Below, one piece after another: positions 23,791-32,741 of a stretch of 54,396 nucleotides of DNA (positions within the stretch are counted from its first letter, which is position 1; every line of letters starts with the position of its first letter). The position numbers were made by a program, and so were the translations under genes. Origin of the DNA: Laspinema palackyanum D2a (lineage in GTDB: Bacteria > Cyanobacteriota > Cyanobacteriia > Cyanobacteriales > Laspinemataceae); the NCBI GenBank assembly GCA_025370845.1, contig JAMXFF010000024.1:1-54396 (forward strand), read 5' to 3'. The notes below the pieces were generated by a model. It ran no database searches and was not told the DNA's origin. It worked only from the letters and a program-made list of their open reading frames with translations.

Positions 23791-24795
23791 ATGACTACTC
23801 AGCTTAGTGATTTAGAGAACCAACTAGAAAACCTGCGTCAGGACGCAGTGGGGGCAGTCGCCTCGGTGAATACCCTTGATGAACTCGAACAACTGCGAGT
23901 GAACTATCTGGGCAAAAAAGGGCAGCTTTCTCAAATCTTGCGAGGGATGGGAAAACTAGATGCCGCAGACCGACCCCGAATTGGTTCTCTTGCCAATGAG
24001 GTCAAGGAAGCGCTGCAAGGCCAACTGGAAGGGCGGAATCAGGATTTACTCCAGGCTCAAATTCAACAGCAACTCGCGGCAGAAACTCTGGATGTGACCA
24101 TGCCGGGAGTCTATCGTCCCCAGGGTCGGATTCACCCTTTGAATGCGGTGATTGACCGGGCGATCGATATTTTTGTGGGGATGGGGTACACCGTCGCCAC
24201 TGGACCGGAAATGGAAACGGACTATTATAATTTCGAGGCCCTGAATACCCCTCAAGACCATCCGGCGCGGGATATGCAGGATACTTTCTATCTTCCCGAT
24301 GGGAACCTGCTGCGGACTCATACCTCTCCGGTGCAGATTCGCTACATGGAAAACCATGAGCCTCCGGTGCGGATTGTGGCCCCCGGGCGGGTGTATCGTC
24401 GGGATACGGTGGATGCCACTCATGCGGCAGTGTTCCATCAGATTGAAATTTTGGCTATAGATAAGGGAATTACCTTCACGGACCTCAAAGGGACGTTGAA
24501 AGAGTTTGTCCGCCAAATGTTTGGAGAAGATTTACCCTTGCGCTTCCGTCCGAGTTATTTCCCGTTTACTGAACCTTCTGCTGAGGTGGATGTGCAGTGG
24601 AAAGGGAAATGGTTGGAGGTGTTAGGATGTGGCACCGTTGACCCGAATGTATTAAAAGCGGTGGGTTATGATCCGGAGGTTTATACAGGATTTGCCGCTG
24701 GATTTGGGGTGGAACGGTTTGCGATGGTGTTGTATCAAATTGATGATATTCGCCGAGTTTATAGCAGTGATTTACGCTTTTTGCGGCAATTGTGA
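23791..24795 (+). CDS. pheS: Phenylalanyl-tRNA synthetase alpha subunit
   Basis: Class II synthetase subunit that, with PheT, charges tRNA-Phe. 334 residues from the ATG at 23791 ([18 protein letters not shown]); the frame is open to 23476 but upstream translation is repeat-derived and the family starts here. It has the N-terminal coiled coil that contacts tRNA, motif 1 ([19 protein letters not shown]), motif 2 ([20 protein letters not shown]), the phenylalanine-pocket region ([17 protein letters not shown]) and motif 3 ([20 protein letters not shown]). pheT is not adjacent. A second, degenerate copy of its last 31 codons lies at 32649-32741. Confidence 0.96.
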
Positions 24796-24970
24796 TCAAT
24801 GTTTTGAAAACTTTGTGAAAACAGCAATCGGGAGATCGGGACCAGCGATTGTTTACATTTCGTTAAATTCGCGGGGAGCTAATGCGAATTGACGGTAAGC
24901 TAATAAAACTTCAAGTTGGCACTGGTTGCATTGAAGCGAGTATGGCAAATTTACCAAAGTCAGGATCCCT

Positions 24971-27049
24971 GTGAACGAACAAAACACAAACGCTCGACTT
25001 CCCGGTTGCTGTCCATCGGTTCCGAAATCGATTGTAACAGCTACTCGAAACGAACTAAGCGATATCAAACTTGAGGTTAGAGAAGGTAAAATTCCGAATG
25101 ATTTGCAGGGTCACGTTTTTATCGTTGGGCCAGTAGGTTCGGTTAATTCCGGAGGATTACCTTACCCTGAAGGGAACTCGATTTTAAATGGGGATGGGAT
25201 GATTTACCGACTCGACTGCGATCGCCAGGGCGAAGTGCGAGTAACATCACGACTGGTAAAACCCCCCTGTTACTACGCTGATCAAGCAACTCAAGCGGGA
25301 TCGGATTATCAAGAGTATGGATTTAATAATCATGGAATTTCTCGCTTTTCCCTCAAGCTAGGTTTTCGTAACCAGTTAAATACTGCGTTTTTACCCATGA
25401 AATTTAGCGAGGAGCCAGAAGAACGATTACTGATCACCTATGATGCGGGGCGTCCTTATGAAATCGACCCGCAAACCTTAGATGTGGTTACTCCTGTGGG
25501 AGCAAATAGCGAGTGGCGCTCAGAAACATCCCTTAAATTTCCGTTTTTGCCAGTTTTGAGTACGGCCCATCCAGTTTTTGATGCCTACACGAACGAGATG
25601 TTTACAGTAAATTACGGTCGATCAGCCGGAAGTTTTCTGGAGACCATTCCTTTCATCACTCATTTTGAAGAAATCCCCGAAGTCATCAGTGAAATTTTGT
25701 ACCAACTTGCTCGGTTTATTGAAGCCCAAGAATTGGTTAAAGATTTTATTTTATTGGTCAATCAAAACCTGCGAAGTGTATTTGCGTTTTATCTCCAGGT
25801 TCTTGAAAAACTGACTAAAATTGAAGTTAGCAATTTTGTCTATTTGGTGCGATGGAATGGTCAGGATCCGTTAGAACGATGGAAATTAGTTTCGAGAGAT
25901 GGCACTCCCGTCATCATCCAGCAAACCATTCATCAAATTGGCATCACGGAAGATTACATCCTCCTGATGGACACGAGCTTTATTACGGGGTTAGACCAAG
26001 TGCTCAACAGTCCGTTGCCAAAAGACCAAAAAGCAGAGCGATTTTTACGAGATGCTTTAGCTAGTCCACCGTTACCCGATACCACTATTTATCTAGTCCG
26101 ACGTGCAGACCTGAAAAATGGGCAGCGCCCTGCTTGTTCTGGGCGGGAAGTAGAAGTTGTTGCCCGCAAACTAACGATTCCACTAGAAGCCGTTCACTAT
26201 TTAGTAGACTACAAAAACACTGAGGGTAAAATTACACTTCATGCAGCACATTTTTGTGGCTGGGATGTCGCCGAATGGCTTCGGAAGTATGATCGTTCTG
26301 CCTACGCTCCCGAACACCTTTCAGTGCCTTCTCATTTGCGGGGGATGCTCCACAACCAAACCGATGTCGGGCGCATGGGTCGCTATGTTATAGACGCAGA
26401 AAATGTACAAGTCATCGAGTCTAAAGTCATCTATGATACTCAATGCACTTGGGGGGCAGGACTTTATGCTTACCAGGAATATTTGCCATCAGGAATGCCG
26501 CCAACCCAGATCGAAAACATTTATTGGGTTACTTTGGGTTTGTGGAAAGAACTGATGACGCAGTTTGTTTTTGACCTCTATAAAGATTACAAGTACCGAG
26601 TTATCCCGCAAGATGAAGTTCTTCGTCTTGCAGAACAGGGTGTGCCTTCAACGTTGTTTCGACTCGATACAAACAGCATGGAAATTGCCGATCGCTATGA
26701 ATTACCTGCCGGTCATATTATCTTGTCTCCTCAATTTGTTCCCCGTAAAAATGATAACCCCAGTTCGACCAACGGTTATGTATTTGGAACGGTTTACACC
26801 CCTGAACAAAGCGAAATCTGGATTTTTGATGGGGGTAATTTAGAGGGTGGCCCTCTATGCAAGCTGGCGCATCCTTCATTCAATTTTGGGTTTACTATTC
26901 ATACCGCATGGTTGCCCAAGATTGCTCGCCGAACTGCAAGCTACTTGATTCCTGTGCGGCAGGATTATCAGCCCCTTGTTAAGCAGAAAACTCTTGAAAT
27001 TCAGGAGCTATTTGAACAAGAAGTTTATCCGCATTTCCAGAAGGGGTAA
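24971..27049 (+). CDS. Carotenoid oxygenase (RPE65/CCD family)
   Basis: Iron(II) enzyme cleaving or isomerising carotenoids or related polyenes. 692 residues from a GTG. Iron-ligand candidates are the histidines in STAHPVFDAYTNEMF, QTIHQIGITEDYI, HAAHFCGWDVAEWL and FGFTIHTAWL, giving the expected four-His set. It is longer than typical cyanobacterial apocarotenoid oxygenases (about 480-490 aa). Much of the excess is a helical insertion around residues 225-290 (RSAGSFLETIPFITHFEEIPEVISEIL ... shown in parts), which may be a membrane- or substrate-access element. It lies directly after pheS, inside the segment bounded by the two pheS 3' ends, and is followed by its own terminator. Substrate unknown. 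Confidence 0.92.
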   Translation: MNEQNTNARLPGCCPSVPKSIVTATRNELSDIKLEVREGKIPNDLQGHVFIVGPVGSVNSGGLPYPEGNSILNGDGMIYRLDCDRQGEVRVTSRLVKPPCYYADQATQAGSDYQEYGFNNHGISRFSLKLGFRNQLNTAFLPMKFSEEPEERLLITYDAGRPYEIDPQTLDVVTPVGANSEWRSETSLKFPFLPVLSTAHPVFDAYTNEMFTVNYGRSAGSFLETIPFITHFEEIPEVISEILYQLARFIEAQELVKDFILLVNQNLRSVFAFYLQVLEKLTKIEVSNFVYLVRWNGQDPLERWKLVSRDGTPVIIQQTIHQIGITEDYILLMDTSFITGLDQVLNSPLPKDQKAERFLRDALASPPLPDTTIYLVRRADLKNGQRPACSGREVEVVARKLTIPLEAVHYLVDYKNTEGKITLHAAHFCGWDVAEWLRKYDRSAYAPEHLSVPSHLRGMLHNQTDVGRMGRYVIDAENVQVIESKVIYDTQCTWGAGLYAYQEYLPSGMPPTQIENIYWVTLGLWKELMTQFVFDLYKDYKYRVIPQDEVLRLAEQGVPSTLFRLDTNSMEIADRYELPAGHIILSPQFVPRKNDNPSSTNGYVFGTVYTPEQSEIWIFDGGNLEGGPLCKLAHPSFNFGFTIHTAWLPKIARRTASYLIPVRQDYQPLVKQKTLEIQELFEQEVYPHFQKG

Positions 27050-27060
27050 AGTCAGTAACG

Positions 27061-27103
27061 AAAATAAGGGGAGGGAAACTCACACAAACCTTCCCTTATT
27101 TTT
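27061..27103 (+). terminator. Intrinsic terminator after the carotenoid oxygenase
   Basis: Stem AAAATAAGGGGAGGG pairs, with one or two bulged bases, with CCTTCCCTTATTTTT; loop of about 13 bases, ending in a five-T run. It begins 12 bases after the stop codon. Confidence 0.8.
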
Positions 27104-32456: not shown

Positions 32457-32483
32457 TAGGTCTGAGGCATATTTTGAGAATCT

Positions 32484-32532
32484 ACCCTAAAGGTAGAAGC
32501 ATCTTTTGGAATTTGCTTCTACCTTTAAGGGT
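32484..32532 (+). terminator. Strong stem-loop after the 1747-residue protein gene
   Basis: The arms ACCCTAAAGGTAGAAGCA and TGCTTCTACCTTTAAGGGT pair over 18 bases with one bulge, around a 12-base loop. There is no long T-run after it, so it may be a processing or stability element and not a classical terminator. Confidence 0.6.
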
Positions 32533-32648
32533 TAAAGTTAAAGATTGCTTTAGTCCAGAGTAAGTGACTAGGCTTTCCATACCCAGTAATCTGGGATAAG
32601 CCTCTCTAGTAAAATTTGACCAGGGTTAAACTATTTGATTCCCTTAGG

Positions 32649-32741
32649 TTGGGAGTGAAACGGTTTGCAAGGGTGTGGTATTAAATTGATGATATTCGCC
32701 GAGTTTATAGCAGTGATTTACGCTTTTTGCGGCAACTTTAG
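32649..32741 (+). pseudogene. Degenerate second copy of the pheS 3' end
   Basis: 31 codons matching the end of pheS, read as [37 protein letters not shown] against [23 protein letters not shown]... in the intact gene. A 53-base block (32683-32735 against 24737-24789) is identical; the 34 bases before it have about seven substitutions, including CAA to TAA, and the stop differs (TAG against TGA). No further upstream pheS homology is evident. It cannot be functional. The position, 7.9 kb after the intact gene and in the same orientation, is what an integration into the pheS 3' end would leave. Confidence 0.9.

Follow-up and report, generated by a model that had tools for sequence, protein, structure and literature searches.

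A probable non-autonomous island at the 3' end of pheS in the cyanobacterium Laspinema palackyanum D2a

We analysed a 54,396-nucleotide stretch of the Laspinema palackyanum D2a genome (assembly GCA_025370845.1, contig JAMXFF010000024.1; hereafter the window), in which the end of the aminoacyl-tRNA synthetase gene pheS is present a second time on the same strand at a spacing of 7946 bp, beyond a carotenoid oxygenase gene and a gene for a large kinase/phosphatase. We suggest that this interval is a 7.9-kb non-autonomous island, similar to a cis-mobilizable element (CIME), that entered the pheS 3' end by site-specific recombination using an integrase since lost or supplied in trans, and we put the probability of this at roughly 0.7. 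The island had been proposed in an earlier sequence-only reading of the window, and it is supported here by the repeat itself, island-free relatives, mosaic ends and an intact pheS frame.

Two copies of the pheS end and an empty site in relatives

The features at the two junctions, all on the forward strand, are as follows.

23791–24795, +: pheS, the target gene, intact, 334 amino acids (aa), ending in TGA (open reading frame; the stop in relatives is TAG)
24737–24789, +: left 53-bp core copy (attL-like), inside pheS (53/53 match to 32683–32735)
24790–24970, +: pheS end presumably supplied by the island (last Leu codon and TGA) and the left intergenic part of the island (stop and following sequence unlike those of six relatives)
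32649–32682, +: degenerate arm of the pheS-end copy, presumably island-borne, as the non-coding side of a former attP (27/34 identical to the strain's own pheS; TAA in frame)
32683–32735, +: right 53-bp core copy (attR-like) (53/53 match to the left core)
32736–32790, +: putative displaced host pheS end (CTTTAG) and the host sequence beyond it (CTTTAG is the same as in congener G006; the flank matches relatives)

The last 30 codons and stop of pheS (24703–24795) are repeated at 32649–32741, and the two copies agree at 82 of 93 positions and at all 53 positions of the core. The far copy has an in-frame TAA stop and is not a gene. The earlier description of a degenerate repeat of the last 31 codons in the same orientation, with an identical 53-base block and only two genes in between, was thus exact, with two long open reading frames found between the copies. 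When the pheS end was searched against the strain's own genome (7,410,917 bases in 116 contigs), 19 matches were returned: pheS itself (E 3e-79), the far copy (E 7e-30) and 17 others with E of at least 0.298, so that the match of the far copy is far above chance. No tRNA genes were found in the window. PheS shares 99–100% aa identity with the full-length proteins of five congeners, and the three nearest loci in named genomes, from Laspinema olomoucense D3b, Laspinema sp. D2d and Oscillatoria sp. HE19RPO, are each 100% identical. The target gene has been restored, with its frame intact and a protein end like that of its relatives, and only its stop codon is different.

Of seven congeners (G001–G007), six (G002–G007) yielded the pheS end, and G001 gave no pheS match. 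Within the 11.8–17.9 kb covered downstream, all six carry a single copy of the block and no island. In G002, G005, G006 and G007 a single match of ~500–550 bp covers both the pheS end and the sequence following position 32741, with identities, pheS tail included, of 93%, 89%, 83% and 81%, respectively. The continuous match in G004 spans 196 bp, ~100 bp of it past 32741, before the sequence diverges. G003 has a rearranged site in which ~120 bp of unlike sequence lie between the pheS stop and a short match to 32818–32905, making it the one exception to the direct junction seen in the other five. The comparison of pheS downstream regions proposed in the sequence-only reading therefore came out as that reading had anticipated for an island, with the island missing from six of six congeners, a direct junction in five and one uninterrupted block in each. 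Two outcomes that it had named as contrary to an island were not seen: the two genes behind pheS without a second copy, in the congener stretches covered, and the block at many unrelated sites, as only pheS itself and the far copy match strongly in the D2a genome.

The differences between the copies are unevenly distributed, with seven mismatches in the left 34 nucleotides (nt), none in the 53-nt core and four in the last six nt. Random placement of 11 mismatches over 93 positions left a stretch of 53 free of them in 204 of 400,000 trials, and the contrast between 7/34 and 0/53 is significant (Fisher p = 0.0009). All six relatives and the far copy have TAG as the stop codon, whereas pheS here has TGA; the far copy ends in CTTTAG, as in G006, and pheS here ends in TTGTGA. 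The degenerate arm (32649–32682) is 26–28/34 identical to pheS of the six relatives. A single crossover within the core would explain both the mismatch pattern and the exchange of stop codons. The most economical placement appears to be near the left core edge (24737/32683), since to the left of this edge the far copy has decayed and to the right the copies are still identical. A crossover there would make the decayed arm the never-coding part of the island's own copy, and the identical part the recently displaced end of the host gene.

The events may then be outlined as follows. The starting point would have been a mobile DNA, circular or of another form, on which the two genes were accompanied by a pheS-end copy of its own covering the last ~19 codons. 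A single recombination event within the 53-bp block would have joined it to the host pheS. The island would have supplied pheS with a 3' end encoding the same residues and a new stop, TGA for TAG, leaving the gene functional, and the host's own pheS end with its TAG would have been displaced by 7.9 kb. The responsible recombinase presumably targeted the pheS 3' end and was either lost from the element or acted in trans.

Recombinases and recurrence at the pheS end

The absence of a visible integrase, already remarked on in the sequence-only reading, was borne out by a profile search, in which neither of the two island proteins matched an integrase family. The genome holds seven tyrosine-recombinase matches (PF00589), none of them on the island's contig, that could act in trans; six of the seven proteins were viewed, nothing links any of the seven to pheS, and serine recombinases were not searched. 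Candidate relatives of the element on plasmids and phages were considered and rejected. At E ≤ 1 the pheS end matched 36 plasmid records, with no cyanobacterium among the 20 of 36 listed, and 12 phage records, none cyanobacterial; these we read as ordinary pheS genes, not checked singly. Two degenerate patterns gave no matches in viral contigs. In literature searches judged by title and abstract we recognised no description of pheS as an attachment site, although pheS may be listed in supplements or the TIGER database; pheS is not mentioned in the main text of PMC12884075, as far as that text was available.

We scanned 131 distinct pheS loci with at least 1 kb of downstream sequence, 96 of them with 8 kb and 57 with 15 kb, for further copies of the terminal 150 nt of the gene; the island's own pheS is among the 131, with less than 4 kb downstream. 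Nine matches were found at E ≤ 0.02, of which four (E 0.005–0.019) involved other parts of the pheS end or the other strand and were set aside as chance. The remaining five (E 2e-7 to 5e-5) stop at the pheS stop and lie 1.0–1.3 kb downstream on the same strand. They come from an unclassified member of the Oscillatoriales (L163), Microcoleus sp. LEGE 07076 (L146), Tychonema sp. LEGE 07203 (L133) and two genomes of genus g6 (L218 in G268 and L219 in G182). A different insert with a pheS-end copy is thus present at 5 of the 131 loci, all from Microcoleus/Tychonema relatives. In L163, L146 and L133 the insert holds one small open reading frame on the opposite strand, unrelated to the island, and no integrase was seen by eye. 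An ungapped scan of 98 loci yielded five best matches that beat all 30 shuffles, L163, L146 and L133 clearly and L150 and L202 by one to two letters. Two loci that have this frame but no copy at E ≤ 0.02, L150 and L168, still show traces at the expected place.

An empty counterpart of this insert may be represented by L139, which looks empty, with an anchor sequence 209 nt past the pheS stop versus 213 nt past the far copy in L146 and L133. The same anchor gives offsets of 11 and 134 nt on L219 and L218, L148 (also without the small frame) is off by ~90 nt, and the first ~200 nt at the L139 comparison are too diverged for alignment. The Microcoleus/Tychonema insert resembles the pheS island in its gene end, in the displaced pheS-end copy on its far side and in the lack of an integrase visible by eye, but differs in its size of ~1.0–1.3 kb, its single small unrelated frame on the other strand, its short decayed copy and the absence of that copy from several relatives with the frame. 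We infer that these copies go back to one old event, independent of the island, at the same gene end.

This recurrence hints at a recurrent attachment site and raises the likelihood of a targeted mechanism, though two lineages make a small sample. A possible third case is a degenerate 119-bp pheS-end copy in G086, located away from pheS near a methylase gene. It is tempting to imagine the pheS 3' end as a standing attachment site in filamentous cyanobacteria, at which one host-encoded recombinase moves small integrase-less islands with unrelated cargo in the manner of a one-site integron; we regard this extension as decidedly unlikely.

Weighing the island against its alternatives

Islands at gene 3' ends are recognised by a far-side direct repeat, an empty site, a restored target gene and an integrase of their own; the first three are present here and the integrase is not. 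Gene-restoring islands of the TIGER/Islander kind, as described in the available part of PMC12884075, similarly show sporadic presence, hybrid ends, a restored target and an empty site, but the pheS island has no integrase gene inside. A closer likeness may be found in CIMEs, decayed elements that keep attachment sites without recombination or transfer genes and have a classical size of 1.2–13 kb; in streptococci they form part of composite islands located at the 3' ends of rpmG, rpsI, fda and rplL (PMC7563491, in the sections available). The pheS island, which would work like these, has in common with them a cargo flanked by attachment sites, the latter inferred from sequence, the lack of recombination and transfer genes, a size within the range and a position behind a housekeeping gene, at its 3' end. 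It differs in that no related integrative and conjugative element (ICE) or integrative and mobilizable element (IME) and no tandem partner were found, and in its phylum and target gene. Membership among the CIMEs would call for descent by deletion from an ICE or IME of the same specificity, and a non-exhaustive search found no integrase-bearing element with a pheS-end copy.

Several observations weigh against the island interpretation. The island has no recombinase, no circular form was seen, and a non-exhaustive search found no integrase-bearing element at the pheS end or with a pheS-end copy. The small frame of the Microcoleus/Tychonema insert lies behind pheS in 11 of 26 loci examined, seven of these 11 have no pheS-end copy at E ≤ 0.02, and the Microcoleus copies are short (31–38 nt, 82–89% identical) and look like the product of one event. 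The G+C content of the island (0.434) is lower than that of the left (0.487) and right (0.474) flanks and lends weak support, but single flank genes with values of 0.434–0.445 match the island. Finally, the cargo kinase gene has many paralogues in its own genome, with 63–73% nt identity over longer stretches, so that it tells little about origin, and a foreign source does not have to be assumed for this cargo gene.

The perfect identity of the 53-bp core, long enough for RecA, also counts against a dedicated enzyme. Recombination through RecA could have brought in either a circle or the DNA of an island-bearing Laspinema, with the pheS end (and the flanks) as homology, and homologous recombination within Laspinema lineages has been described (PMC9500459, in the part available). 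We nevertheless consider this route unlikely. The homology runs from the last ~30 codons to the stop, as in gene-end-restoring elements, instead of covering an arbitrary piece of pheS and donor flank, and another insert is found at the same gene end in another clade. The same source also reports that Laspinema strains recombine little relative to mutation (PMC9500459, in the part available). Moreover, import by double crossover accounts for the present strain and not for the origin of the first island.

It is also conceivable that the island was ancestral to the genus and was precisely excised in the relatives. The decayed arm, with 7/34 positions changed, is more diverged than pheS is within the genus (94.5–98% nt identity over aligned parts), and the island carries a genus-specific repeat, described below; both fit an ancestral island. 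Loss in each of the six relatives would be required while the core stayed identical, which makes this history very unlikely, and it is compatible with the site-specific island that we favour, as precise loss is itself excision. A segmental duplication, which the sequence-only reading had allowed, or an insertion flanked by a long target-site duplication, the far copy having decayed afterwards in either case, would account for the shared orientation and the degenerate far copy. Such a history is extremely improbable given the non-random mismatches (204/400,000) and the stop codons, since pheS here departs from the six relatives and their stop is found in the far copy.

The site-specific island, if correct, points to pheS, which encodes an essential aminoacyl-tRNA synthetase, as a cyanobacterial attachment site, and shows that integrase-less islands can be recognised from the mosaic of gene-end copies. 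Should a trans-acting recombinase prove to be involved, the pheS end would offer a natural landing site for cyanobacterial genetics.

Cargo and surroundings of the island

Between the junctions lie two genes and a repeat.

24971–27049, +: first cargo gene, carotenoid oxygenase (RPE65/CCD family), 692 aa (Pfam RPE65, E 2.4e-34)
27213–32456, +: second cargo gene, Ser/Thr kinase, AAA ATPase, GAF and SpoIIE-type phosphatase, 1747 aa (Pfam Pkinase, AAA_16, GAF, SpoIIE)
32455–32558, no strand: ~100-bp dispersed genus repeat with a 17-bp inverted repeat (32485–32501 / 32514–32530) (genome search, E ≤ 1e-6)

Carotenoid oxygenases of this family bind iron through four His residues, and seven His are invariant across 12 aligned oxygenases, the island's included. 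The best matches of the island oxygenase among 39 genomes are in G029 (61%), G038 (57%), G036 (56%) and G033 and G023 (55% each), compared with 47% and 46% for the oxygenases of congeners G002 and G001; judged by these identities, it is divergent. We guess from the domains that the cargo probably has a role in apocarotenoid production, signalling or both.

A distant oxygenase–kinase pair occupies another locus in G001, G002 and G007 (L084, L083 and L085, respectively), with the G007 oxygenase broken into two reading frames. That locus has no pair in D2a itself, G003, G004 and G006, and its flank was unmatched in G005. We considered the pair as a mobile unit in its own right and rejected this: the only repeat with a low E-value between the flanks of the G002 pair is a hairpin-like sequence of 66 columns and 73% identity (E 3e-6), which is not a gene end, and no repeat was reported between the flanks of the G007 pair. 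As there is no gene-end repeat at this locus, the pair does not carry the pheS-end mechanism along. An oxygenase gene with a kinase gene of this kind immediately behind it was also observed in other families (L087, L089, L090 and L093), with tandem oxygenase genes in L089 and L090, and the pairing looks conserved.

The ~100-bp intergenic repeat has at least seven further copies in the D2a genome and occurs in six of seven congeners (not G002), with copy counts per genome that are lower bounds; none of the 31 other genomes has it at E ≤ 1e-6. The presence of this genus-specific repeat in the non-coding end of the island suggests that the island has resided in the genus. The region after the island (32742–38316) is itself variable, as a catalase-like gene (35914–38034, named by eye) is missing here in G003, G005 and G007. 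Other repeats in the window, tandem and dispersed, lie at 2155–2604, 23192–23601, 45535–45677 and 48128–48248, and include a 75-bp tandem array, a 209-bp tandem duplication directly upstream of pheS and a scattered unit around TAACGACTTCAGTCGTT.
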